A stretch of DNA of 23,351 nt from positions 1-23,351 of IMG/VR virus record IMGVR_UViG_3300025132_000312; one strand, given 5' to 3'. The position numbers and the translations under genes were made by a program. This DNA is from a virus. Below are positions 14-23,351 of this stretch, piece by piece (the stretch's first letter is position 1; every line of letters begins with the position of its first letter). The notes below the pieces were generated by a model. It saw nothing but the letters and a program-made list of their open reading frames with translations. It was not told where the DNA came from and did not search any database.

Positions 14-1795
14 TTACAATGTTGCTCCTTCAATAATATTCCTTTCAAGACTTTGTGCAGTAGTTACATCGTTTGCAACCACAAATGCTTTAACAGGTTT
101 TTGAGATGCTACAACATCTGCAATCTGTTCGATCCCACTCATACCTACTACATTAAACGCAGGGGCTTGTGATTCTGTTGTTGATCCTCCTGTAGATGCT
201 CTGATTGTACTAGGTGAAACTTCTGATGCAACTGATCCTCCTTTCCCAATTGCTGATAATGCTTTTTGAGAAGATGCTATTGTTGCTGCTATTCCTATTG
301 CAGCATTTGCAGTATTAATTGCCACCCAAGGCAACCCTCCAGTAAGTGGAGAGGCTGCAATAGATTTTGCATTTGCTATTTGAGTACTCATTATTATTTG
401 TCCAATACTTGCTGCTGATTCTGCTACAATTATAGCTTTTTGAAGTTTTAAATTTCCTTCAGCCATTCCTTTTAATGCTCCCAATCCATTTTGTAATACA
501 CCTACTTTTGCCATTTCTGACTCCATAACACTCATATTAGCAGCTATTTCTGCATCTTTTAATTCATTGGTTAATCCTATTCTTTCTTGATAGTTACCTT
601 CTAGAAATTCATTTAAAGCAATCTCTGCATCAACCCTTGCTTGTGTACCTAAATTAGCCTCATTAACTACTGCTTGTAATCTTTCTTCTTCACTTGCTCT
701 TTCTTCTGCATTTATTTCTTGTAATTTTAAAAGTCTAAGTTCATCATTCTCTATTTGTTCAGCATCAATTTTTTTCCTTTCAAAAGATAAAGCAGATTCT
801 GCTTCCAGTTTAGAATTAGTTAATTCTATTTTTTCTCTATCAAGTGCAAGATCATTTGCTTTTTGTTCTGATCTAAAACCTTCAACAGTAGCCTCTACTG
901 CCATCACTTCATTTTTTGCTTGTATTAGTGCAACTTCATTTTCTGTTGATTTATTTTTTTCAAAAGCCACCTGTGCTGCTTTTAATGAAATGTTTGCATT
1001 TTCAAGCATCACCTTATTCTGTTCTTCTAATAATCTGCCTAGTTCTTCATTGGCTTTTATTCTATCTTCTATTGAATTTCTTTCTTCATCTCTAATCTGT
1101 CTTTGTTGCTCTGCTTGTCTGTCATACTTTTCAAGCAATCCTGCATTTGTAGCTTCTGCAACTTCTGCTGACTTAGAAAGTTGTACATTTGCAACTGCTG
1201 CCTCTTTTATGTCAACAGTATATTTAGCAATGTCACTACCTGCTTCAACAAAACCATCTCCTGTTTCTAAAATAGCATCACCTAAACCACTAAATCCTTC
1301 TTGTACAGAATCTAATGCACCACTAAAATCACCACCGAATATCTTACTAAATGCATCACCAAATTTTTCAAATGCTTGTGTTGCAGTTTGAATAGGTTTA
1401 CCGAAATACTTATCGAATGCATCTCCTAATTTCTTAACAGAATCTAACCCTCCTGTAATAAATCCAAAAACATCATTAAAAACTAAAGCCAATCCTTCAA
1501 ATGCACTACTAACTGAATCAGCAATGACTTGATTTTGCATGAATAGTTCTTTCATTGACTCTAAAGCAATTAAAAACAATCCTACCCCTGCTGCCTTAAT
1601 AGCATTACCTATTCCTCTAACACCTTCACCTGTGGATTTAGATGTTTCTTTAATGTCATCTAAACCTTCTTTGATTTGTTTATTGCCTTGATCAACCGAT
1701 TTGGTTAAATCTTTGATTCCATCGGTTAGATTGTCAACATTCTTTTCCGCTTTTTTACTGTCAACTTCTAAACCTACTGTTATTTTTTCTGCCAT
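14..1795 (-). CDS. tail tape measure protein
   Basis: 593 residues, the last gene of the tail module in this window. The tape measure fixes tail length and is packed inside the tail tube. Seen: a helical N-terminus rich in Lys/Glu/Asp, a hydrophobic segment around residues 62-80 (AIKAAGVGLFLIALESM), a long Glu/Gln/Ala-rich coiled-coil region at about 215-430, and a second hydrophobic Ala/Ile-rich region at about 450-515 before a Ser/Thr-rich end. This is the usual tape-measure pattern. It lies downstream of the chaperone pair that would coat it. At roughly 1.5 angstrom per residue the tail would be short, about 90 nm (inference). Its start overlaps the end of the small gene at 1780-1926 by 16 bases, suggesting coupled translation. 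The stop is 13 bases from the window edge, so the gene is complete. I see no peptidase or lysozyme domain in it. Confidence 0.85.
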   Translation of the reverse strand: MAEKITVGLEVDSKKAEKNVDNLTDGIKDLTKSVDQGNKQIKEGLDDIKETSKSTGEGVRGIGNAIKAAGVGLFLIALESMKELFMQNQVIADSVSSAFEGLALVFNDVFGFITGGLDSVKKLGDAFDKYFGKPIQTATQAFEKFGDAFSKIFGGDFSGALDSVQEGFSGLGDAILETGDGFVEAGSDIAKYTVDIKEAAVANVQLSKSAEVAEATNAGLLEKYDRQAEQQRQIRDEERNSIEDRIKANEELGRLLEEQNKVMLENANISLKAAQVAFEKNKSTENEVALIQAKNEVMAVEATVEGFRSEQKANDLALDREKIELTNSKLEAESALSFERKKIDAEQIENDELRLLKLQEINAEERASEEERLQAVVNEANLGTQARVDAEIALNEFLEGNYQERIGLTNELKDAEIAANMSVMESEMAKVGVLQNGLGALKGMAEGNLKLQKAIIVAESAASIGQIIMSTQIANAKSIAASPLTGGLPWVAINTANAAIGIAATIASSQKALSAIGKGGSVASEVSPSTIRASTGGSTTESQAPAFNVVGMSGIEQIADVVASQKPVKAFVVANDVTTAQSLERNIIEGATL

Positions 1796-1926
1796 CTTAC
1801 TTCGTTTTTAAATCCTTTCCAAGCACCTTTAAATGTTTTAGGAAATAGATATTTGCCTTGTGCTATTCTAATGTTTTCTGTTTCACCATCTGCTATTTCT
1901 AGCATTTTTAAAATCATTTTTATCAT
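1780..1926 (-). CDS. small hypothetical protein between tail protein and tape measure
   Basis: 48 residues, beginning MIKMILKMLEIADGETENIR and ending KNEVRWQKK. Unrecognised. It fills the only gap between the 714-residue tail protein and the tape measure. Its ATG forms an ATGA overlap with the upstream stop, and its stop lies inside the first codons of the tape measure, so both junctions look translationally coupled. That fit is the main evidence that it is real. A second in-frame ATG at 1917 is a possible alternative start. It is charged and has no membrane segment or Cys motif. Its place suggests a tail assembly role, but nothing in the sequence proves one. Confidence 0.6.
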   Translation of the reverse strand: MIKMILKMLEIADGETENIRIAQGKYLFPKTFKGAWKGFKNEVRWQKK

Positions 1927-4067
1927 ACTATATTGATTAATTCAATATTGCTTTTACCATTTGTTAAATCTGTTTGTATTGAATTGATTCTATAATTTTC
2001 ATAATTAATTTCTATAGTGTCATTTAATTTTAAATTATAAATCATGTTTAAAGGTAGATATGCGGTCACTCTAATAAGCCTTCTCTTTGTATTAAATATT
2101 TCAGCAATATAATTTTTATAATATGTTGCAAACAAAGTACCAGTAAACCCTGTTGTTAAAGTGTATTCATTAATTTCATCATAAAAATTAATGTTTGATG
2201 TGTCAGTAGATGAAGAAAGTGAGACACTATTTGAAGGTATTATAAAAGTATCTAATGATGTGTTATTTGTTGAACTTGTTCTATATGATATAGGGGTAGA
2301 TGATCCCTGTTGCAAAATAGGATAAAAAAGTAAAGGCTTACCAAAATAAGATTGTAAATTTTGATCTACAAAAAACCCATATTGTATTTCTGTATTTGAA
2401 TCATCTGAAATATTTATCAATCTTTCATTTTGAATATGTTCAAAAGGTAATTTAACTGTATAAACTTCATTGGGTGCATCGTATGTTTGACCATCTAAAG
2501 TATATCTTTCAGTTCCCCATCCTTTATTGTTTAACTGATTATACTGTTGTGCCAATAAAGTTCCTAATCCTTCGTATTCAAAATTTACTTGTTTAAAAGG
2601 AAGTGCAACATTTACTTGACTAGAATTAACATCTATAAATTCATCTAAAGAATAAGTAGTAGAACCTGTTGTTCCTGCTTCGTTCCACAAACTATCATCA
2701 TTATTCCATAAAGTATCTGTAGTGTTCCAAGTACTTGCTAATTGATAAAATTCATCTAGTGTTTTTACAATAATTACACCATCTTCAACATAAGCAGTTA
2801 GATTAAACATATTAAACAAACCTGTAAGAAAATCAATTACTTTCATTTCGGGTATTTGTTCAACAATATTAAAATCAAATGCAGTTGATGTTATAAACTG
2901 AGATGATGTAAAGGTTAAATTCCATGTAGTAGTATTTGACACACCTGCAACTTGCCATTCTACACTATCAAATGTAATTGGATTATTTCCTTTTTGAACA
3001 ATTGTTACAGTATAAAATGCTGATCCTCCACCTGTCATTAAACCCATGTCTGTTTGGGTAAAAGTTCTATCACCTGCATCAAAAGAAGATTCAAAAAAAA
3101 CACTTTGATTATTATGAATTATAACTTGATATTGTTCTGATAATGTTGCTGAATTTACATCTAAAACAAGGTTGTTATGAGTAGTTGCATCATCATACAA
3201 AGCCAACATTGATGTGGTTAGCATTCTGGCATAAGTTCCTGCACCTGTTGACCAAGTATTAACTAAACTGTTATATTGTGTCACTTGTGTGGGTGCATCT
3301 ACACTTCCTTTTTTTCTGTGTAACCACATAAACAAATTATAATAATTTGCATTTGATGTGTTAAAAAAATCATCAGAAAAAACAATATTAGAAGAAAATA
3401 AATTTGCAGTTGTGTAATAACTTTGAATTGCTTGAATAATAGTATCTACTCTAATTGCATATTTTAAATCACTATATAAAAGTCCTCTTTTTGGGTAATT
3501 TGTAGTGGTATTATAAGCTAAATTTTTCCCTTCAGTATCAGTTGAACCACTTTCATAAGTTAACCTTGATGTATGTGTAATTAGTGGTGCAATAATTTTT
3601 GTGCTTGTATTTGTGGGATCAGCTTGTAATTTTGCTTGTACAGTAGAAGAATCATAAAGTAAATTTTCACTAGCTAAAGGGGCTAAATTTGATAACATGT
3701 CATCACCTAAAATATCCTTTAAATTAACAGTCTCACCATAAAAAGTAATCTTGTATGTGTGTGCTATATTGTTTTTTAAATCGACTCCATTTAAAGCTAT
3801 GAATCCACTTTTCCAAGTAAGATAATTTAATTCAATTGATGCTGAAACTTTTTGTCTTGCATCAAAACCCCCTACAATATTATAATTGTAATAATGTTTA
3901 AATATTTTGTTATTATTTGGGGATGCAGGTACAGAAAAAGTCTGTGTAAACTCTGTGAAAATCTTTGCAATATCTCTGATATTTTGTATGCTCTGATTTA
4001 TAGATAAAGTTTCATCTTTAAAAAGTTCTAATCTTTCACTTCCTATATATACCTGTACCTTTTGCAT
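1923..4067 (-). CDS. large tail / baseplate structural protein
   Basis: 714 residues. The N-terminus reads VYIGSERLELFKDETLSINQ followed by a segment on initial conditions of the tail (FTQTFSVPASPNN), a pattern I associate with Bacteroidota phage tail proteins. The middle is Thr/Ser/Asn-rich beta-type sequence. At about 405-435 comes IPEMKVIDFLTGLFNMFNLT and then VKTLDEF, like baseplate hub or tail-tip proteins. The C-terminus (LIRVTAYLPLNMIYNLKLND) looks like a beta-rich hub domain. A short Trp-Asn repeat (TWNTTDTLWNNDDSLWNEAG) sits at about 445-465. It abuts the preceding tail gene with no gap and is followed by an ATGA-coupled small gene. The tail role is confident from context and sequence style; the exact part (hub, distal tail, adhesin carrier) is inference. 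Confidence 0.7.
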   Translation of the reverse strand: MQKVQVYIGSERLELFKDETLSINQSIQNIRDIAKIFTEFTQTFSVPASPNNNKIFKHYYNYNIVGGFDARQKVSASIELNYLTWKSGFIALNGVDLKNNIAHTYKITFYGETVNLKDILGDDMLSNLAPLASENLLYDSSTVQAKLQADPTNTSTKIIAPLITHTSRLTYESGSTDTEGKNLAYNTTTNYPKRGLLYSDLKYAIRVDTIIQAIQSYYTTANLFSSNIVFSDDFFNTSNANYYNLFMWLHRKKGSVDAPTQVTQYNSLVNTWSTGAGTYARMLTTSMLALYDDATTHNNLVLDVNSATLSEQYQVIIHNNQSVFFESSFDAGDRTFTQTDMGLMTGGGSAFYTVTIVQKGNNPITFDSVEWQVAGVSNTTTWNLTFTSSQFITSTAFDFNIVEQIPEMKVIDFLTGLFNMFNLTAYVEDGVIIVKTLDEFYQLASTWNTTDTLWNNDDSLWNEAGTTGSTTYSLDEFIDVNSSQVNVALPFKQVNFEYEGLGTLLAQQYNQLNNKGWGTERYTLDGQTYDAPNEVYTVKLPFEHIQNERLINISDDSNTEIQYGFFVDQNLQSYFGKPLLFYPILQQGSSTPISYRTSSTNNTSLDTFIIPSNSVSLSSSTDTSNINFYDEINEYTLTTGFTGTLFATYYKNYIAEIFNTKRRLIRVTAYLPLNMIYNLKLNDTIEINYENYRINSIQTDLTNGKSNIELINIV

Positions 4068-5087
4068 TTATCTTACGTTATTTATGTAACTAAATGCCAT
4101 TTCAAATTCCATCACATAATCAATCAAGCGATCATTTAAGCTAGTTTTATATGTAAATGTTGAACTTTTAACAATTACAGGAACTACCTGTTCTGAAGAT
4201 GGATTAAAAGGATCGGGTTGTGTCAACCATATATTATTACTTAATAACAATTCTTCAAAAAAAGGATTAGCACCTTCGGGATAATATCCACTACTTAAAA
4301 CAATTCTTTGATTGGCAGTTTTATTAAATACATTTTTAGTTGGGGCATTTACTGAATAGGTAGCTGATCCACTAGAAATATCAATAGTATTTGCATTGTA
4401 AGTTTCTTTTGTGGATTCTGTGGTTTTTACACTTTTTAGAGAAAACCATAAATCTTGCATTGCACCAAATTTATTTACAAATGTTATCTTATGCCCATTT
4501 CCGTATTTTGTACAGTCTATTCTAACAATAGTCAAATCAGTTGTTCCCGATAATGACAACGAAGTATAAGCGGGATTTGAAGGATCAGCACTAAATCCAG
4601 CTTGAGTAGGTGTGCCACTTGGAGATATTTGCGAAACCCAACCTGCAGTATTCTCGGGATAATAAACGTAATACCCATTTTTAATTACATCTTTAGATAT
4701 TAACCAAATAGAATTGGCTGCTAGTGTTGGATTTATTCCTTCCATAAAAGTTCCATATCCATCAAATGCAGTATGAGTAATGGCAGTGGGTGAACCTTCA
4801 GTACCTGTTGCATCTTCTCCTGTGTATTGTTTCACATTAGAATTTTCTGTAGATACTGTTATGGGTTGTGTTTGTCCCCCTGTAAATGCTTGTGCAATAT
4901 AGTCTCTAATTAATTCAGAAATTTCAAAAGTAACCTTAGTACCACTTGCTGCATTTTTTACAATCGTATATCTTAGAACACTAGAACCACCAATTATTTT
5001 TATATATAATTCTAATTTTATACTATTTTGTGATCCACCCATTGTATAGGTTTCATATCTAGGTGACCTTACTAATATATTTGCCAT
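4068..5087 (-). CDS. tail structural protein
   Basis: 339 residues, Ser/Thr/Asn/Gly-rich and predicted mostly beta. Seen: N-terminal SPRYETYTMGGSQNSIKLEL; the phrase ITFVNKFGAMQDLWFSLK at about 202-219; and a C-terminal TYKTSLNDRLIDYVMEFEMA. These phrases recur, in my recollection, in a Bacteroidota phage tail protein family of unknown fine function. It sits between the HK97 gp10-like protein and the large baseplate-like protein, with its stop directly abutting the next start. The position could suit a tail tube or tail tip protein; I cannot tell which. There are no Cys motifs, signal peptide or membrane segment. Confidence 0.65.
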   Translation of the reverse strand: MANILVRSPRYETYTMGGSQNSIKLELYIKIIGGSSVLRYTIVKNAASGTKVTFEISELIRDYIAQAFTGGQTQPITVSTENSNVKQYTGEDATGTEGSPTAITHTAFDGYGTFMEGINPTLAANSIWLISKDVIKNGYYVYYPENTAGWVSQISPSGTPTQAGFSADPSNPAYTSLSLSGTTDLTIVRIDCTKYGNGHKITFVNKFGAMQDLWFSLKSVKTTESTKETYNANTIDISSGSATYSVNAPTKNVFNKTANQRIVLSSGYYPEGANPFFEELLLSNNIWLTQPDPFNPSSEQVVPVIVKSSTFTYKTSLNDRLIDYVMEFEMAFSYINNVR

Positions 5088-5089
5088 AA

Positions 5090-5635
5090 TTATCTTTTTG
5101 TGCCTAACACAATTGCTTTTTCAATATCTAACTTAAATCCTTTTAATAAATCTTGTGGTAGCCTTCTAAATGCTTGGTAGAATGGTTTGGTAAAAAACAT
5201 AGATGGTTTGATACCTTTGTTGTAAATACTACGAACAATTAAAAACTTCATTGATTCATAAGATAAAAATCTACCTGTTTTTTTACTTTTCCATTGTTTG
5301 ATGGGTTTTTGTTTAATCCATTTTTCAATGCCTTGTGTTAATCCTCCTTTTTTACCTTTACCACTTCCAAACTTAAAAGGTGATGTTCTATTATTTGTAG
5401 ATGTGGTTGCCCCTCTTACACCTTGATCTACAAAATCACCATAATCTTCCATGATAAAATCAATTAAAAAATTAGCATTCTCTTGAGATATTTTAAAATC
5501 TAATGATCTGTACAATTCACCAGTTGAATTTTTATTTCCATAAGGGGGTTTACCCTTTGTTAAATTTGTTCTACTTTGTTGAATTACATATTTACCAAAT
5601 GCATTTAATGCTTTATCTATTTCTTCAAATTTCAT
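5090..5635 (-). CDS. HK97 gp10-like tail completion protein
   Basis: 181 residues from the ATG at 5635; an upstream TTG at 5647 would add four residues but is less likely. The start forms TGATG with the stop of the preceding gene. The protein is basic, with an N-terminal helix (KFEEIDKALNAFGKYVIQQS), a Gly/Lys-rich loop near residues 85-105 (KFGSGKGKKGGL), the phrase KQWKSKKTGRFLSYESMKFL, and a C-terminal FFTKPFYQAFRRL helix. This layout is like the HK97 gp10 / neck-type proteins that complete the head-tail junction or tail terminus. Its place just after the chaperone pair and a tail-terminator-like protein fits. The assignment is from overall pattern only. Confidence 0.6.
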   Translation of the reverse strand: MKFEEIDKALNAFGKYVIQQSRTNLTKGKPPYGNKNSTGELYRSLDFKISQENANFLIDFIMEDYGDFVDQGVRGATTSTNNRTSPFKFGSGKGKKGGLTQGIEKWIKQKPIKQWKSKKTGRFLSYESMKFLIVRSIYNKGIKPSMFFTKPFYQAFRRLPQDLLKGFKLDIEKAIVLGTKR

Positions 5636-6117
5636 CAGCAATTCCAAATATCATTCCAAATAGTTATGTTAAAGGTAGCAGTAACACCTGCTATTTGATT
5701 TTCAAATCTATCTTCAAAAAATTCAAAATTTGCATCTCCTGTTACTTGATACATATTCTGAAATAAAGTGCCACCCCTCATCAACTGAATTACCTTATTA
5801 CTTACACTCATTTGTGTATTTAAAATATCTTGGACATTGTTATTGCCTACAAATAAATCTGTTGTAGGTTCTTTACTTTGGTTGACAATATCCATAGATA
5901 AAATAGATACGTTGAATGTGTATGTGCTACTTCCATTGTCATCACTTTGTGTCACACTATTTATCAAGATATGCGACAAGGGGAAAATATCCTGCTTGTT
6001 TAAATTTACATTTGATATGTCACCTGTGGTAACTGTCTTACAATTTACATCAGCAAGTAGTTGCGTTTTTAATGTGTCAGTAACTTGATAAAATCCTCTT
6101 ACCCCTTGATTACTCAT
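5635..6117 (-). CDS. neck / tail terminator-like protein
   Basis: 160 residues. N-terminus MSNQGVRGFYQVTDTLKTQL, beta-rich centre with TYTFNVSILSMDIVNQS, and C-terminus ATFNITIWNDIWNC. The N-terminal helix followed by beta strands and the 'FNVSILSMDIVN..' strand resemble the small minor tail proteins that cap tails or form the neck. Its ATG forms an ATGA overlap with the stop of the -1 reading frame of the preceding gene (6114-6116), which ties it to the frameshifted product. The next gene begins at TGATG on its stop codon. Function is inferred from position; the exact capsid or tail contact is unknown. Confidence 0.55.
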   Translation of the reverse strand: MSNQGVRGFYQVTDTLKTQLLADVNCKTVTTGDISNVNLNKQDIFPLSHILINSVTQSDDNGSSTYTFNVSILSMDIVNQSKEPTTDLFVGNNNVQDILNTQMSVSNKVIQLMRGGTLFQNMYQVTGDANFEFFEDRFENQIAGVTATFNITIWNDIWNC

Positions 6118-6850
6118 TTCCTTTTATTTTTTATTTGTTGTGCCTCTGCTTCGTTTTTTTCTTTCATAAATGATAACATTGTTAAACATTCGTTTAATTC
6201 AAGGGAAGTGATATTTTCAAATCGTTCAATATTTCCTTGAGCGAGAGCATAGATGCTTGAATACCATCCCCATTTTTTCCCAAACCCTGCTGAGATACTT
6301 GTTGTTTCTTCACTTCGTCTTGTAAATAATTGCTCGTAACGCTCAACAATTCCATCCCTAAATTTTGCAAAAAAAAAGCAGCACTTAACATTACTGATAA
6401 AGGCATTTGTTTCATTCTCTCCTTTGCATTTATATCATAATCTTCAATAGAATATTTACCTGCTTTCTTATTTTTAACAGGTCTGTAAAGGACATTCATA
6501 GCTAAATGCATTTGATCTTCTTGTGGAAGATATGTATCTATATCTATGTATTCACCAAAAGAAATATCTTGTAAATTTGGAATAAAACCATACTCTACCC
6601 CATTCATTTTAAAAGTTCTAATAAGATCAGTTTTCTCTTGAAATGTTTCTGTTAACTTTTCAATGATCCGTTCCACATCTTTAAACTTAATATTCCTTGC
6701 ATCTTTAAAATCTACGTTGCAGAATATTTCAATCATTTTTAACTGAAGAATATATTCATCTTCTTTGTTAATTTGCTGAACCTTTAAAAATCTTTGATAC
6801 TGTTCAAGGGTAATTTCTGATAAATTTGGTACAGTTACAGTTGCATTCAT
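6114..6850 (-). CDS. tail assembly chaperone, frameshifted long form (gpGT-like)
   Basis: Predicted fusion of about 245 residues made when ribosomes slip -1 at A AAA AAT (6278-6272). It reads the zero frame to residue 192 and then about 53 codons in the -1 frame to TGA at 6116-6114. The -1 segment begins KWGWYSSIYALAQGNIERFE and continues with LTMLSFMKEKNEAEAQQIKN. That is coding-like, and I recall the same pattern (KWGWY..IY.LA..DI..F) as the C-terminal domain of tail chaperones in related phages. No ATG precedes it that would give the domain separately. The stop overlaps the next start as ATGA, exactly as other junctions here. By analogy with lambda gpG/gpGT, this T domain would recruit tail tube subunits to the tape measure. 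Confidence 0.8.
6194..6850 (-). CDS. tail assembly chaperone, zero-frame short form (gpG-like)
   Basis: 218 residues from the ATG at 6850. A longer reading from 6904 would start inside the terminator hairpin and give an odd hydrophobic leader, so I reject it. N-terminus MNATVTVPNLSEITLEQYQR, then helical, charged sequence with EIFCNVDFKDARNIKFKDVE, ending ...EILNDLKISLPLN. The family is recognisable as the Bacteroidota phage chaperone that precedes tail genes. In lambda the short form coats the tape measure, and the ratio of short to long form matters. The zero-frame tail after the slip site (about 26 residues) is expected to be dispensable. A strong terminator ends the previous unit only about 35 bases upstream, so this gene may have its own promoter in the gap; TATAAT lies just before the ATG. 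Confidence 0.75.
   Translation of the reverse strand: MNATVTVPNLSEITLEQYQRFLKVQQINKEDEYILQLKMIEIFCNVDFKDARNIKFKDVERIIEKLTETFQEKTDLIRTFKMNGVEYGFIPNLQDISFGEYIDIDTYLPQEDQMHLAMNVLYRPVKNKKAGKYSIEDYDINAKERMKQMPLSVMLSAAFFLQNLGMELLSVTSNYLQDEVKKQQVSQQGLGKNGDGIQASMLSLKEILNDLKISLPLN
6272..6278 (-). promoter_or_regulatory. -1 programmed frameshift slippery heptamer
   Basis: Minus-strand heptamer A AAA AAT placed in the zero frame as gga-aaa-aat, so both tRNAs can re-pair after slipping one base back. Immediately before the slip are codons for GLGK, and after it the -1 frame gives KWGWY. A small stem AGCAT/ATGCT lies about 20 bases downstream; it is too weak to be sure it stimulates slipping. Confidence 0.8.
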
Positions 6851-6885: not shown

Positions 6886-6916
6886 AAAAAAAAAGGGCAG
6901 CCATTTCTGACTACCC
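6886..6916 (-). terminator. rho-independent terminator
   Basis: Minus-strand stem GGGTAGTC / GGCTGCCC (8 pairs including two G-T) with loop AGAAAT, followed at once by nine T. It lies 19 bases after the stop of the 6935-7219 gene and before the tail chaperone, so it should end or attenuate transcription from the unit that starts near 7590. Confidence 0.8.
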
Positions 6917-6934
6917 TCCAACCAAACAAAAGAT

Positions 6935-7623: not shown

Positions 7624-8832
7624 TTATCTTACATGATATGTACCCCTATTTGGATTGTTTAATTGATAGGTAACGGAATATCTGAGAGCGTCTAAAAGGT
7701 GATTGTGGGAATCCTGTGGCGTTTTTGACTTTTTTTGTAACCAACAATAGTTATTCAATTCTTTAATTAGATTAACGGAATCTTCAGATACAATTAAATC
7801 ATAATCTTGAATCAATGAAATGCCGTAGGTAATAGAACCTTGTCCTTTTACACTAGGAACTATATTAGAACCCTTAGATTTAAGTTCATTGATCAATCTA
7901 GGTTCTGCACTATCTCCAACTATTAAAGCCTTTCCTGCATGTTTTAAATTAAGTTCTCCAATTTCTGATGTGGTTAAGTGTTTAATATAAAAACATTCTC
8001 TTAAATAGATAATTTTATTTGTTGTGTCAATGTTGGTTTCTATAAGAGTAGATTCATCAGATGCAAATCCATAATCTTGACCAAATACTGACACACCTAC
8101 TTTCTTAAATTCTCCTATCTTCCAGTTGTCGAAAATTACACCTTCGGCTTTATCCAACCATCCTCCAAGTATCTGATGTTTATATTTATTTGGTCTCCTT
8201 TTCTTAATGCTCTCAATTTGTGATAAATAGCTTTCTGACAGATTTTTAATATTGTCTTTAAATGTTGTATGAATATAGGTCACATCATCTTTAGTTGCAT
8301 TTAAACCTTCTTGCATTCCTTTGTCTTGGAAGAACCTTTGATAAAGCCAATGTTCTTTTGTAGTTGGGTTTAGAATTAAGATAATCCTATTGGTTTGCGT
8401 TTGGGATCGTACAGATAAATCTATCTTGTCGAATGTATCCTCATTAGTAAGTTCTTCAGCCTCATCTAATACAAATGTAGTGACACCTTGTAGTGATTTA
8501 AGATTTGCGGTTTGATCACCCGAAGAAGTTTTTATTCCTTTGAAGATAATCTTTGAACCCGATATTCTGTTTTGTATTTCATCCTTTGTGATTTGGAAAT
8601 GATCAAAGATATTAAGCAGTTCTAGCTTTTCGATAAATTCGGGAATGATAGACACATAAGCAGATGTTAAGGTATATCTACTAAAAAGTATTACATGACC
8701 TTTCTCATAGGTTAAAAGACACAACATTAAATTAATGGAAAAGGATTTACCACTTCCTCTCCCACCTGTTACAATAAAATATCTAGAATCTGATTTTGAT
8801 ATTGGTGAATATTTTGGATTTACCTTAATCAC
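7624..8832 (-). CDS. terL: terminase large subunit (PBSX/T4-like fold)
   Basis: 402 residues. It is the packaging motor ATPase and nuclease that docks on the portal. Seen: Walker A TGGRGSGKS at 22-30; Walker B TTFVLDEAEE at 118-127 with D123/E124; coupling motif ILNP at 153-156; and a C-terminal RNase H-like nuclease with Asp in GQDYG (D253), VGDSAE (D307) and HLLDALRY (D381). The length is normal for the family. The start overlaps the small subunit by 8 bases. It is followed by a promoter-like element rather than a portal gene; portal and capsid must lie to the right of this window or beyond its left end, so packaging and head genes are separated. Confidence 0.95.
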   Translation of the reverse strand: MIKVNPKYSPISKSDSRYFIVTGGRGSGKSFSINLMLCLLTYEKGHVILFSRYTLTSAYVSIIPEFIEKLELLNIFDHFQITKDEIQNRISGSKIIFKGIKTSSGDQTANLKSLQGVTTFVLDEAEELTNEDTFDKIDLSVRSQTQTNRIILILNPTTKEHWLYQRFFQDKGMQEGLNATKDDVTYIHTTFKDNIKNLSESYLSQIESIKKRRPNKYKHQILGGWLDKAEGVIFDNWKIGEFKKVGVSVFGQDYGFASDESTLIETNIDTTNKIIYLRECFYIKHLTTSEIGELNLKHAGKALIVGDSAEPRLINELKSKGSNIVPSVKGQGSITYGISLIQDYDLIVSEDSVNLIKELNNYCWLQKKSKTPQDSHNHLLDALRYSVTYQLNNPNRGTYHVR

Positions 8833-18425: not shown

Positions 18426-18683
18426 CTATTCAGAAACTAAAGTCAAATTTAAGTCACTAGCTACAAGTTCGTAAATGTAATTATCATCAGCACCCCACGC
18501 AGTATATTCTTCACCGCTAATTCCAAGATTACCTTGTGATACTTGATGCCCTTCTTCGGTTAGCAATTGCCAATAAAAAGATGCACTTTGTCCTAAAGTT
18601 ACACTTGTACCTTGTACTTGTAACTGATTAGCAATTTTGGTTGTACCATTCTGCCAAATTTGTATTGGTTCTATTTGTTTCAT
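18426..18683 (-). CDS. conserved small protein following the tail fibre
   Basis: 85 residues: IEPIQIWQNGTTKIANQLQV, then SVTLGQSASFYWQLLTEEGH and GISGEEYTAWGADDNYIYEL. The pattern 'I.IW.NG...A......L..SA.FYW.L....G..LA.GNL...GE.Y..W' is recognisable as a Bacteroidota phage protein, usually near fibre genes. Its ATG overlaps the fibre stop (ATGA), so it is translated with the fibre. A fibre chaperone or virion accessory is plausible, not shown. Confidence 0.7.
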   Translation of the reverse strand: MKQIEPIQIWQNGTTKIANQLQVQGTSVTLGQSASFYWQLLTEEGHQVSQGNLGISGEEYTAWGADDNYIYELVASDLNLTLVSE

Positions 18684-21049
18684 TTTTCTAATTTTTCAAT
18701 TCTTAATTTTAAATCTTCTATTATAGTTTGTTGTTCTTGGATGGCTTTTGTTAAAACCGCAGTTAATTGCGAATAGTTTACTGCTTCTTTTTGGATTCCT
18801 TTTGATTCATCTTTAGTATCAACTTGGGAATAACTTACAAATCTTTCATCGGGAAAATCTTCTGCAATAAAACCAACTTGTTTTTGATCATTAGATTTTA
18901 AATTATATTTTACGGGATTTAAAGAAAGAATAAAATCTAACCCAATATCAATCTTTTCTACATCTTTTTTATATCTTATAGAACTGCTTTTTTTACAAAT
19001 AAAACCCGAAGAATTTAACACTAAATCTGTTCCGCTATCTGTTGCGATTAATCCCGCATATACCGCACCATCGTTACGAGCGTGAAGAACACCATAGCCA
19101 TCGCTATTAAGAGTTACAAAAATATATTTTGCACTTGTTGTGGAATCCCCCATCATATATACCTTATAATCTGAGTGTGGGTCACGATTAATGCCGATAT
19201 TTCCTGTTGTATAGCCTATTTTAAAAACATCTCCTTTATTTCTGCTATTAATTACATAAGCATCATCACTAGCATTATTATAAGTTTGCCATCTGTAATT
19301 TGTGCTAACTCCATCAGTTGTAAGTAATGTAGATTGTGAATATATATGATTGCTAAAATTAGCATCACCCCCCGATGAGATGGTGAGTTTTGTTGAAGGA
19401 GCAGCATTGTTAGATGTTTGAAATTGTAAATCTGCATAATTTCCCGCAGTTGATTGAGTAGATATAATTCTTGCACATCTATCATTATCTCCTGCGTTTA
19501 CATAAAAATCAAGTGATATTCCTGTTCCTGATGCAGTGTGTGCGTTATTATATAATCCTAATCCTCTAGTTATGCTTCCACTACTATCATTTTTTACATT
19601 TAATTTAGATAAAACTTGAGTAGTTCCAATACCTACACTACCATCCGATGATTTAATAGTCATCCTCCTAATATTTGCCGTTGAAAAAACTAAATTTGAT
19701 ACTTCGGCTCTGATTACTAATTCTCCTAAACTTGCATCACTTAATATACTACTTCCTGTTCCGCCCATTCTTCCGTAAAGCGTACTATCTGAATGGTATA
19801 GCATAATACCATAATTAGCATCTGTTCGGCTAGTTTTTAATTCTAAAAGTTCAGAAGATGTGCCATTTGTGAAAGTAGAAACACCCACTGAGGAGATGTT
19901 AAGTCTAGATGTACCAACAGTAGTTAAGTGTAATTTATCATTAGCGTGATCATAATAAATTCCTCCTCTATAAGGTTCATTGCCTGTTGTCCCTTGAGCA
20001 AAATACAATGCACCATTAGTATTATCTGCAGTTACTATTGTTATTCCTCCTTCACCACTTGCTTGTTTTACAACAAGATTATCTGCTCCACTGTAATAAT
20101 CTGTTGGAGTTGCTCCAATACCCACATTACCACTACTATCAACTTGTAATCTAACATTCCCATCACCATCCGAAATGATAATGTTGTTAGATGATCCGCT
20201 TATATCTATTCCTCCAAAATTTCCTGTAAATGATCCAATTATTACATTTTTTGATCCTGTTGAAATTGCAGAACCCGAACTATTACCCAAAAAAGTGTTA
20301 TTGCTTCCTGTAGTTATCCTTCCCGAATCTGTTCCTATAAAAGTATTTGACGAACCGCTTGATAAAGTAATTCCCGATTCCTGACCAATAGCAGTATTCT
20401 TATCTCCTGTTGTAACATTTTTTAAACTATCAAAACCAATAGCAGTATTATCCTCTCCTTCAGTTAATTCAAATAAAGCACTTTGACCTACACCCACATT
20501 ACTTTGTCCAATAGTTAATTTGTCAAGAACATTATTTCCAAAAGCAACATTATTTGCGCCTGTAGTAACTCTTTGCATATTGCCGAATCCAAAACCGCAA
20601 TTACTTGATCCTGTTACATTAACAATATTTCCTCCACCTATATTATAAGAAGTTGTGTCAGTACCTGCATTATTTTTTTGTAATAATGATATAGCATTAC
20701 TGACTATTGACATTGCGGGATCACTCCTTAATTGATCAGATGTATTATTCCATACTGCAATAGTATTTAAAGTAATCGTTCCTGTTTTTATAACATCTCC
20801 ACTTGCATCAGCTACCCAAGATAATGTACCACTCCCATCAGTTTTTAAAATTTGGTTTGCAGAACCATCAGTTGTTGGAAATTCGTATTCATTATAAAAG
20901 TTTATTTTGCTAGTGCTTAAATATAACTTAGACCCATTTCCACTCCCATCTGTTATTTGAGCAAGTGATGATGTTAATACACCATTGCCTGTTGTTTTTA
21001 ACAAGCCTTGATAAGTTTGTGAAATTTGTTGATTAAATAAACTAGCCAT
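18680..21049 (-). CDS. tail fibre with YadA-like repeats and S74 autochaperone
   Basis: 789 residues, the receptor-binding fibre. An N-terminal virion-binding part (about 1-100) is followed by about six repeats of 21-26 residues at 149-295 with the theme 'T.G..N..IG..S' (NTAIGFDSL, NTAIGQESG, NTFIGTDSG, NTFLGNSSG), as in YadA-head beta rolls. Then comes a long Ser/Thr/Gly/Asn beta region. The C-terminal 102 residues are a Peptidase_S74 intramolecular chaperone: SSSIRYKKDVEKI with predicted cut before S689 and K694 as its partner, ILSLNPVKYNL, QVGFIAEDFPD, and a final coiled coil (IIEDLKLRIEKLEK). The chaperone drives trimer folding and then cuts itself off. Its place between head connector and lysis genes is unusual. 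Confidence 0.9.
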   Translation of the reverse strand: MASLFNQQISQTYQGLLKTTGNGVLTSSLAQITDGSGNGSKLYLSTSKINFYNEYEFPTTDGSANQILKTDGSGTLSWVADASGDVIKTGTITLNTIAVWNNTSDQLRSDPAMSIVSNAISLLQKNNAGTDTTSYNIGGGNIVNVTGSSNCGFGFGNMQRVTTGANNVAFGNNVLDKLTIGQSNVGVGQSALFELTEGEDNTAIGFDSLKNVTTGDKNTAIGQESGITLSSGSSNTFIGTDSGRITTGSNNTFLGNSSGSAISTGSKNVIIGSFTGNFGGIDISGSSNNIIISDGDGNVRLQVDSSGNVGIGATPTDYYSGADNLVVKQASGEGGITIVTADNTNGALYFAQGTTGNEPYRGGIYYDHANDKLHLTTVGTSRLNISSVGVSTFTNGTSSELLELKTSRTDANYGIMLYHSDSTLYGRMGGTGSSILSDASLGELVIRAEVSNLVFSTANIRRMTIKSSDGSVGIGTTQVLSKLNVKNDSSGSITRGLGLYNNAHTASGTGISLDFYVNAGDNDRCARIISTQSTAGNYADLQFQTSNNAAPSTKLTISSGGDANFSNHIYSQSTLLTTDGVSTNYRWQTYNNASDDAYVINSRNKGDVFKIGYTTGNIGINRDPHSDYKVYMMGDSTTSAKYIFVTLNSDGYGVLHARNDGAVYAGLIATDSGTDLVLNSSGFICKKSSSIRYKKDVEKIDIGLDFILSLNPVKYNLKSNDQKQVGFIAEDFPDERFVSYSQVDTKDESKGIQKEAVNYSQLTAVLTKAIQEQQTIIEDLKLRIEKLEK

Positions 21050-21112: not shown

Positions 21113-21622
21113 TTATAGTACCCATCCGTTGAAAGTTGCGTCATAACTTGGATAAATATCATCATTTGTATTTGTGGTGTATTCTGGAAATTTAGACTGA
21201 TTAAAACACATATAATCTATGAATCTTCTTGTGTACCATTCAGCATGTGTTCTTTCTTTTTCTACTAAAAAATCAATTTCATTTTTACTAACTGATTCTG
21301 AATTTTCAGCAGTATGTTTATACACCCCTCCGTTACGCAATTGATAGGCAGCATAGGGATAATAATCAACCTGTGCCCAATGTATTAACATAGGTTGTAT
21401 ATACTCGTTTAAAAGTGTCTTATAATCAGCATTAGCAGGTAAATCAATATCTGTTGGAATAAGAGCAGTAATTTTATCGTACAACTTAGTTCCTAGATAA
21501 TTTTGAATAGTTATCTCTTGAGCAATCTTAATAAATTGTATGAATTTATCTGTGTCAACATTTCCATCCATTATTGAATTTCTGACTAAATCTGTACGAT
21601 TAATAAATAGTTTTGTAGCCAT
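21113..21622 (-). CDS. DUF6712-like head-tail connector protein
   Basis: 169 residues, helical and acidic. N-terminus LFINRTDLVRNSIMDGNVD, a helix-rich centre with IQNYLGTKLYDKIT (about 37-50) and LLNEYIQPMLIHWAQVDYYP, and C-terminal TRRFIDYMCFNQSKFPEYT. The pattern 'Q...LG..L...I..........Y..L....I.P.L....' is that of gp6-like adaptors under the portal, and the 'C.N...FPEY' end is one I know from DUF6712. It starts on the last base of the previous gene's stop. It would form the first ring below the portal. Confidence 0.75.
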   Translation of the reverse strand: MATKLFINRTDLVRNSIMDGNVDTDKFIQFIKIAQEITIQNYLGTKLYDKITALIPTDIDLPANADYKTLLNEYIQPMLIHWAQVDYYPYAAYQLRNGGVYKHTAENSESVSKNEIDFLVEKERTHAEWYTRRFIDYMCFNQSKFPEYTTNTNDDIYPSYDATFNGWVL

Positions 21623-22650
21623 TAGTATTTATATTTTAGTGATCCATGATTAGGTAAATCAAATGTTGCTCTTTTTGCATCTTTACTTCCAAAAGGATTC
21701 CTTATGTAACTTTTAGGAATTGTTCCTGTTTTCCTGTAATTTTTTAAGTTTTCACTTACATCAGCACCTTTTTTTCTTCTATACAATACTTGTTTCCAAG
21801 CGTGACGACAATAACAACCACCCTTGTATTTAAATAAATCATAAGAATCTTTTCCTTTAGGGCTAAATTGACCATTTACTTCATCTCTACTTGCTCTATC
21901 AATATCTTCAATAGTATAAACAATTCCTTTTTTAGACAAATCCATCATTTTTTTACAAAAATCTCTTGTTTTGTAACTGCTTTTACGTTTCATTTTACCT
22001 GTGGCTTTGTCATACACTTTTTGAATAGACTTTGCTTTAGATTTTTTATAATATTGATAGCGTATTTTATAATTATTACTATCTATATAACTATAAGAAC
22101 TTCCATCATTTTTGGATTTTATAGGTTCAGATAATCCTACTATTTTTCTTATTTTATTTAAAGTTGTTTCCTTATTTACAAGACAAGCATTTACCCATTC
22201 TTCATTAGACAAATTCTCATCTGAAACATCTCTAACATCTGTAATAATCCACTCATCATTTACAACTTCACCTTTTAAGTTTTCTAAAATTAAATGTCCT
22301 TGCTCATCACTTAATTCGGGTGCTTCTTCTTTTGCTTTTATAGGTACACAATTAGGAACTTTCTTTCCGTTCTTAGTTTTCATACCAATCATTTCATACC
22401 CATCATAACAAGGTGCTTTTAAGTTTATAGCTTCATTATGATCTTTACATGGCATGTGCCAAATCTTTCCATCTTCTTCGTGTTCGTGCGAACCCTTGCA
22501 TCCTAATACTTCAGATACTTCTTCAGCCTCTTCTTTAGTTTCATATACAGTTTGACCATCAATTTGTTTTAAACTAATCTTGGACATTTGTATTCCAGTC
22601 TCTTCTTCTATTTCTAATGGAAAAGCCGGTGCTATTTTGTTAACAGGCAT
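21622..22650 (-). CDS. head structural protein with capsid-maturation-type motifs
   Basis: 342 residues. Seen: LGCKGSHEHEEDGKIWHMPC at 49-68 with C51, H55, C68, H71 (possible metal site), then PCYDGYEMIGMKTKNGKKVP at 80-99 and NCVP. The 'CYxGYExIGxKxKNGxxVPNCVP' theme is familiar from phage head proteins linked to XkdF-type prohead proteases. A C-terminal segment DFCKKMMDLSKKGIVYTIED (about 229-248) with a Cys-rich basic GGCYCRHAWKQVLYRRKK (281-298) is another known flavophage head theme. No protease triad is visible, so it looks like the C-terminal half of such a protein acting alone. It starts one base after the upstream stop. Confidence 0.6.
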   Translation of the reverse strand: MPVNKIAPAFPLEIEEETGIQMSKISLKQIDGQTVYETKEEAEEVSEVLGCKGSHEHEEDGKIWHMPCKDHNEAINLKAPCYDGYEMIGMKTKNGKKVPNCVPIKAKEEAPELSDEQGHLILENLKGEVVNDEWIITDVRDVSDENLSNEEWVNACLVNKETTLNKIRKIVGLSEPIKSKNDGSSYSYIDSNNYKIRYQYYKKSKAKSIQKVYDKATGKMKRKSSYKTRDFCKKMMDLSKKGIVYTIEDIDRASRDEVNGQFSPKGKDSYDLFKYKGGCYCRHAWKQVLYRRKKGADVSENLKNYRKTGTIPKSYIRNPFGSKDAKRATFDLPNHGSLKYKY

Positions 22651-22651
22651 T

Positions 22652-23351
22652 TTAAGTCCCCCCTACCTTAAATAACTTACCAAAATTATTTTGACACTCA
22701 TTTCCATCTTTATCATGTGGTGAATCTGTTCTCAATCTTCTTCTTATATCATATGAGTATTCGCCAAGATTTGAAAACTTCAGCCCATCAAGGATTTTTC
22801 TTTGCGCATGCTTTACAATATCTTCGTTGTTTTCTTCCTCATTGGGGGGATCTCGATCATTATTCTTGTAAAATGAAACAAATAGTTTTCTTGCTTCACT
22901 CTTTGAGTCATTAAACACCTTATCAAGTTGATTTGGAGACAATGGATTCTCATCATCTCCGGAATCTCTTTCGGCATCTGAGCCTAAAGCGAACAAAAAA
23001 TTGTTGTATGAGTAGATCATAATGATAGAAGGTAGTTTTTTAATCTGCAATACATTGTCTACAAGGTGTTTAAAGTTTTTAGTCTCAACCAATTTATCTA
23101 TATAGCACTTCAAGTCTTGATTCAAGTTATTATCAGAATTCAGTAATTCTTCCATTTTTACGTCTAAAATATCTTGTTCATAAGAGCATATAGGGAAAGA
23201 GTATTTGGTTGCTTGAAGCGTTCTCTGACGTGAATCTGTTTGGAATGTTGCGGGGCTTTGCACAAAGCTGCGTTGTCTCCGAGAAGACTGGTTTATGGAT
23301 AGGTTTAATTCTGTTCCTTCTGGTGGTATGTAACACAGACGAACACCATAT
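22652..23351 (-). CDS. partial virion protein cut by the window edge
   Basis: An open frame runs off the right edge; 232 residues are visible and there is no stop to the window end. The upstream part reads YGVRLCYIPPEGTELNLSIN, so the GTG at 23263 is not needed as a start. Remaining text: SYEQDILDVKMEELLNSD at about 54-71, a hydrophobic LPSIIMIYSYNNFLFALGS at about 104-122, acidic linkers, and RRRLRTDSPHDKDGNE near the end. It is unlike the other genes in residue use (Arg- and Asp-rich) and DNA is more GC-rich near the edge. I do not recognise it. Its place directly before head genes suggests a capsid or portal-region protein. Confidence 0.6.
   Translation of the reverse strand, partial: YGVRLCYIPPEGTELNLSINQSSRRQRSFVQSPATFQTDSRQRTLQATKYSFPICSYEQDILDVKMEELLNSDNNLNQDLKCYIDKLVETKNFKHLVDNVLQIKKLPSIIMIYSYNNFLFALGSDAERDSGDDENPLSPNQLDKVFNDSKSEARKLFVSFYKNNDRDPPNEEENNEDIVKHAQRKILDGLKFSNLGEYSYDIRRRLRTDSPHDKDGNECQNNFGKLFKVGGT

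Follow-up and report, generated by a model that had tools for sequence, protein, structure and literature searches.

A conserved run of T's as the predicted site of a programmed frame switch in a tail-module gene of marine flavobacterial phages

The phage genome fragment IMGVR_UViG_3300025132_000312, whose full stretch of 23,351 bases forms the window analyzed here, contains a gene that closes 76 bases ahead of its downstream neighbor, with a second coding-like frame running across this gap. The locus raises the question of whether one gene is read into two proteins through a change of frame and, if so, where the frame changes and whether the ribosome or the RNA polymerase changes it. An earlier note on this DNA proposed a −1 ribosomal slip at an A AAA AAT heptamer, as in lambda, yielding two tail assembly chaperones. 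Comparison with related phages indicates that marine flavobacterial phages obtain two proteins from this tail gene via a programmed frame switch at a run of T's; the preferred reading, with a probability of roughly two in three, has the RNA polymerase stuttering on the run. By comparative evidence, the switch is real and strictly conserved, with its site corrected and its mechanism probably differing from the one proposed earlier. The gene and its immediate surroundings are composed of the following features:

6194 to 6850, minus strand: short form, the zero-frame product of 218 aa, starting with ATG at 6850 to 6848
6369 to 6377, minus strand: frame-shift site by comparison, an uninterrupted T9 read as the zero-frame codons gcT TTT TTT TTg
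6114 to 6377, minus strand: −1-frame extension of 87 codons plus TGA, which the long form carries behind the N domain
6197 to 6368, minus strand: double-coding stretch with both frames constrained, from the codon-position pattern
6272 to 6278, minus strand: an in-phase A AAA AAT heptamer, distinct from the conserved shift site
5635 to 6117, minus strand: next gene, 160 aa, its ATG overlapping the −1 stop (ATGA)

Most of what had been read from the letters of the window holds. The zero frame ends with a stop at 6194, the 76-base gap ahead of the next gene is real, and the −1 frame is coding-like, reading KKWGWYSSIYALAQGN...KNKRK up to a TGA stop at 6114 to 6116. This frame shows no start of its own, as no ATG, GTG or TTG is located near the run in the window. 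Its stop overlaps the ATG of the next gene (6117 to 6115) in the arrangement ATGA, which recurs in 30 of 48 representatives, with a 1-base overlap in 7 more. The short form is comprised of the common N domain and a zero-frame tail of 58 codons beyond the T9 run; the long form is comprised of the N domain and the −1 extension, 245 aa in all. The extension measures 87 codons rather than 54 because the T9 site lies ∼95 nt earlier than the heptamer.

The T-run is a constant feature of the relatives. Among 80 close relatives taken from IMG/VR, all 79 with a complete gene contain a run of 9 to 11 T's ∼180 nt ahead of the zero-frame stop and the same layout of zero and −1 frames; A AAA AAT is absent from most of them. 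Wider scans covering other branches yielded at least 311 loci in 248 distinct neighborhoods, a sample of a larger family. All 248 distinct relatives among the loci listed, the cultured Nonlabens phages P12024S and P12024L included, have an uninterrupted run of 9 to 12 T's (T9 in 138, T10 in 100, T11 in 8 and T12 in 2). The homopolymer is thus conserved at the length of about 9 or more A's or T's at which slippage can occur. In the same 248 listed relatives, the extension always occupies the −1 frame, with an offset that is never 0 or +1, and none joins both frames into a single open reading frame (ORF). The N domains fall into 44 groups at 60% identity, with the farthest pair 21% identical; owing to shared ancestry, the 248 relatives do not amount to 248 independent events. 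With the amino acids and the codon usage of each locus held fixed, a run of at least nine T's would be expected in 18.3 of 48 representatives and is observed in all 48, a difference well past what chance would give but to be taken as a guide and not as a probability owing to the relatedness of the members. Downstream of the run, the extension is conserved in the 48 aligned members, with invariant F2, F3, F32, W38 and L68 and the pattern FFxxFR...Y..LF in its N-terminal part. The zero-frame tail past the run spans 15 to 87 codons across the relatives, with a median of 55.

Substitution rates in 90 disjoint sister pairs, determined for each codon position of the long form's frame, point to constraint on both readings. 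Upstream of the run, where this frame is the zero frame, positions 1, 2 and 3 change at rates of 0.109, 0.057 and 0.309. From the run to the KWGW motif, the rates for the −1-frame positions are 0.157, 0.077 and 0.125, and from the motif to the zero-frame stop, they are 0.084, 0.039 and 0.102. Past the zero-frame stop, the changes are biased toward the third position, with 0.083, 0.037 and 0.206. This pattern indicates that the −1 frame is coding past the zero-frame stop and that both frames are constrained between the run and that stop; both the short and the long products are, by this measure, under selection. At the level of comparative sequence evidence, it is established that the site is the T-run, that the direction is −1 and that both products are under selection. 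The idea of one gene with a short and a long product related by a −1 change of frame therefore stands, and the site originally named for it does not.

A −1 ribosomal slip at the heptamer itself is extremely improbable. A AAA AAT is indeed in correct phase at 6278 to 6272 and adjoins an overlapping G GGA AAA, but just 7 of 97 representatives contain it, and 11 of the 97 have an XXXYYYZ motif of any kind near its position. Aligning relatives, the check proposed in the earlier note, thus supports a conserved −1 frame and speaks against a conserved heptamer. Moreover, the −1 frame is under selection and contains the conserved FFxxFR...Y..LF already upstream of the heptamer, continuing as coding sequence up to the T9 run, which excludes A AAA AAT as the conserved site. 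With the slip at T9, the predicted junction peptide is AFF[F/L]AKFRD instead of GLGK-KWGWY. Very improbable, too, is an independent gene that starts within the −1 frame. This is the annotation of phages P12024S and P12024L in GenBank, with two coding sequences (genes 38/39 and 40/41), and PHROGs likewise holds two families. However, a start codon near the run is absent from the −1 frame in most representatives, this frame is closed 1 to 26 codons upstream of the run in the representatives checked, and the start annotated in the Nonlabens phages would remove the conserved FxxFRxR..Y..LF part. The remaining reading of this kind holds that one gene is split by phase variation of the T-tract, genomic slippage or a homopolymer sequencing error. 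Long homopolymers are, as is generally known, easily mutated and mis-sequenced, but the N domain and the extension are offset by −1 in 248 of the 248 relatives listed although the length and register of the run vary, and both frames are constrained downstream of it. An accident of the genome or of its sequencing is thus an extremely remote prospect.

The mechanism of the switch is addressed by the exact extent of the run. It is found in three codon registers, and its lower edge is nine T's in each, even though a ribosomal heptamer would require 9 T's in register 0, 8 in register 1 and 7 in register 2. In register 1 (xTT TTT TTT Nnn), the next codon begins with T in all 82 representatives while encoding six different amino acids (Y in 44, L in 18, W in 10, F in 8, and C and S in 1 each). 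In register 0, the run reaches nine T's ahead of the next codon and leaves the following base free, and that codon begins with C in 8 of 14 representatives. Leucine codons in this place are TTR in 18 of 18 cases in register 1 and CTN in 8 of 8 cases in register 0. Nine T's match the RNA-DNA hybrid of RNA polymerase, which is 9 to 10 bp long. A search for pseudoknot-free RNA structure in the 70 nt downstream of the run gave a mean folding z of −0.12 and a median of +0.12 in 24 representatives. In bacterial transcripts, insertions at A/T runs are mostly of a single nucleotide and become exponentially more frequent as the run lengthens (PMC5574713), and slippage on nine A's or T's is documented (PMC5009743).

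Slippage of the RNA polymerase on the T-run is probably the mechanism of the frame switch and the likeliest of those considered, to judge from the retention of at least nine T's where a ribosomal heptamer needs fewer, the lack of a downstream structure in the representatives folded, and the literature on single-nucleotide insertions and nine-base runs. Most transcripts would be read in the zero frame to give the 218-aa short form. In a minority, the polymerase would slip back on the T-run, where the U:A hybrid can re-pair without a mismatch, and the addition of one U (U9 to U10) would put the −1 frame in phase. The ribosome would then need only to translate the longer mRNA, continuing in the −1 frame after T9 to the 245-aa long form, presumably the minority product. 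This form would gain a C-terminal domain with the conserved KWGWY region, and its stop codon would be coupled to the next gene via ATGA. The competing reading is −1 ribosomal frameshifting at U UUU UUU within the same run, with tandem slippage of tRNA-Phe in the P and A sites. Every run type seen contains an in-phase T TTT TTT, so that the same protein would result, and the tail chaperone genes of many phages do use −1 ribosomal slippage (PMC5009743). The choice of hydrophobic amino acids (F, Y, L and W) could also account for part of the T constraint, and this is what keeps the polymerase at no more than probable and leaves the ribosome a real though lesser chance. The ribosomal slip nevertheless leaves unexplained why the run is never shorter than nine where 7 or 8 T's suffice, and no downstream stem was found in the 24 representatives. 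Of the lambda-like proposal, the −1 change of frame persists; its ribosomal nature is doubtful, given the constraint on at least nine T's in place of a heptamer and the failure to find a stimulator structure.

A search of the open-access literature turned up no account of transcriptional slippage for the tail chaperone genes of phages. The role of the two products is suggested by their genomic surroundings, which include the following features:

7624 to 8832, minus strand: terminase large subunit gene, the upstream context (phrog_2, E = 8.7e-44)
6892 to 6919, minus strand: intrinsic-terminator-like hairpin plus T-tract, directly upstream of the gene
1923 to 5647, minus strand: three genes (185, 339 and 714 aa) whose order is conserved, placed after the 160-aa gene and before the tape-measure-like gene
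14 to 1795, minus strand: tape-measure-like gene of 593 aa (phrog_1538, tail length tape measure protein, E = 4.8e-7; synteny)

The frameshift gene heads a tail module and is followed by the genes of 160, 185, 339 and 714 aa and then by the tape-measure-like gene. This order is retained in 12 of 12 loci tested, within the limits of their contigs; the upstream terminase varies in relatedness among these loci. The region contains four terminator-like sites, compared to 0.6 expected from shuffles, and transcription of the tail module probably begins anew beyond the hairpin, as a separate unit. The tail of this hairpin is the window's other T9 run (6886 to 6894).

The AlphaFold2 model of the short form has a mean pLDDT of 83.9, with values of ∼90 to 97 for residues 11 to 160 and below 50 at the C terminus; the extension alone is modeled poorly (pLDDT of 56). 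The short form matches phrog_32199 (E = 1.6e-20). The extension family phrog_38404 is matched by 8 of 48 members (best E = 4.8e-44), and phrog_166, a "tail protein," is matched by 13 of 48 (best E = 1.8e-4). A fold search with the N domain returned many viral relatives, nearly all of them unnamed; one, matched weakly, bears the name tail assembly chaperone (E = 5.6e-3; TM of about 0.4). No fold relative of the N domain was found in the PDB (best E = 0.24), a PDB sequence search with the fused alignment gave a chance match only, and Pfam and NCBIfam contain nothing convincing for the gene. A profile comparison detected no homology to lambda gpG (hhalign probability of 0.8%). As a gene with short and long forms heads the tail module, the two proteins may well act like gpG and gpGT in tail assembly, an analogy somewhat favored over a different role. 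The earlier identification of both products as tail assembly chaperones is thus plausible: the tail module, the phrog_166 matches and the weak fold match speak for it, whereas the absence of detectable gpG homology and of a PDB fold match, the poor model of the extension and the separation from the tape-measure gene speak against it.

The resemblance to lambda gpG/gpGT consists of a common N part, a −1 frame, a long form with a unique C-terminal domain and a location among the tail genes, ahead of the tape-measure gene. In contrast to lambda, the site is a run of 9 to 12 T's, the zero-frame tail is a long double-coding one of 15 to 87 codons, and four genes of the same strand and module intervene before the tape-measure-like gene in the loci checked. 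With the genes of programmed transcriptional slippage in bacteria (Shigella mxiE, spa13 and spa33, Citrobacter tssM and several IS transposases), the locus shares an A/T homopolymer of ∼9 or more and the lack of a nearby RNA stimulator. In the bacterial examples, a machine component is likewise made in two lengths (PMC4256274, PMC5009743), a likeness that the short and long forms would share. Unlike these genes, the present one belongs to a phage tail module, uses a T-run and is kept across a large virus family, and slippage is predicted in it from the sequence.

The cultured Nonlabens (Persicivirga) phages P12024S and P12024L, which are about 30% identical, have the same gene with T9 at the same place, the −1 extension and the same gene order. 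They differ in a zero-frame tail of only 25 codons and in their annotation as two unrelated hypothetical proteins; the gene model of their copies (L082:8995-9689 and L083:8995-9689) should be joined across PHROGs 32199 and 38404. A more distant likeness is seen in a 293-aa protein of the Flavobacterium phages 2A and FPSV-F7 (Unahavirus), which scores 28.9 against the N domain profile, compared to at most 19.6 in 60 shuffles, and is related in fold through the copy of phage 6H (E = 2.6e-5). Here the protein is encoded by one unbroken ORF without a T-run, and its C-terminal part shows no significant relation to the extension, its score lying within those of shuffles. At most, this ORF is a hint that an uninterrupted long form may be enough in a different group of phages. 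In Flavobacterium phage 6H, the copy (L156:9500-10940) is split over frames, and the ORF of 2A and FPSV-F7 (L318 and L319) has 2 nt fewer. The split is a sequence difference or error in 6H, which was left out of the shift evidence because its frames disagree with those of 2A and FPSV-F7.

There is about an even chance that a very abundant group of marine flavobacterial tailed phages sets the ratio of two tail-assembly proteins by polymerase slippage on a selected T9 to T12 run, as the transcriptional counterpart of lambda gpG/gpGT. If true, the two-chaperone trick of tail assembly would have been reached by the RNA polymerase instead of the ribosome, with a signal that is very simple and strictly maintained. 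The gene model would then be corrected in hundreds of phage genomes from the environment, two PHROGs families of unknown function would become one gene, and the cultured P12024S and P12024L would allow direct testing. For frameshift-finding tools, homopolymers would be worth looking for beside heptamers.

Three further ORFs on the minus strand of the window lie apart from this module. An ORF of 232 aa (22652 to 23350), open at the window edge, is without significant matches, and one of 342 aa (21622 to 22650) matches DUF3721 (E = 3.7e-9). The third (18680 to 21049) encodes a tail-fibre-like protein that carries a Peptidase_S74 (endosialidase chaperone) domain at its C terminus.
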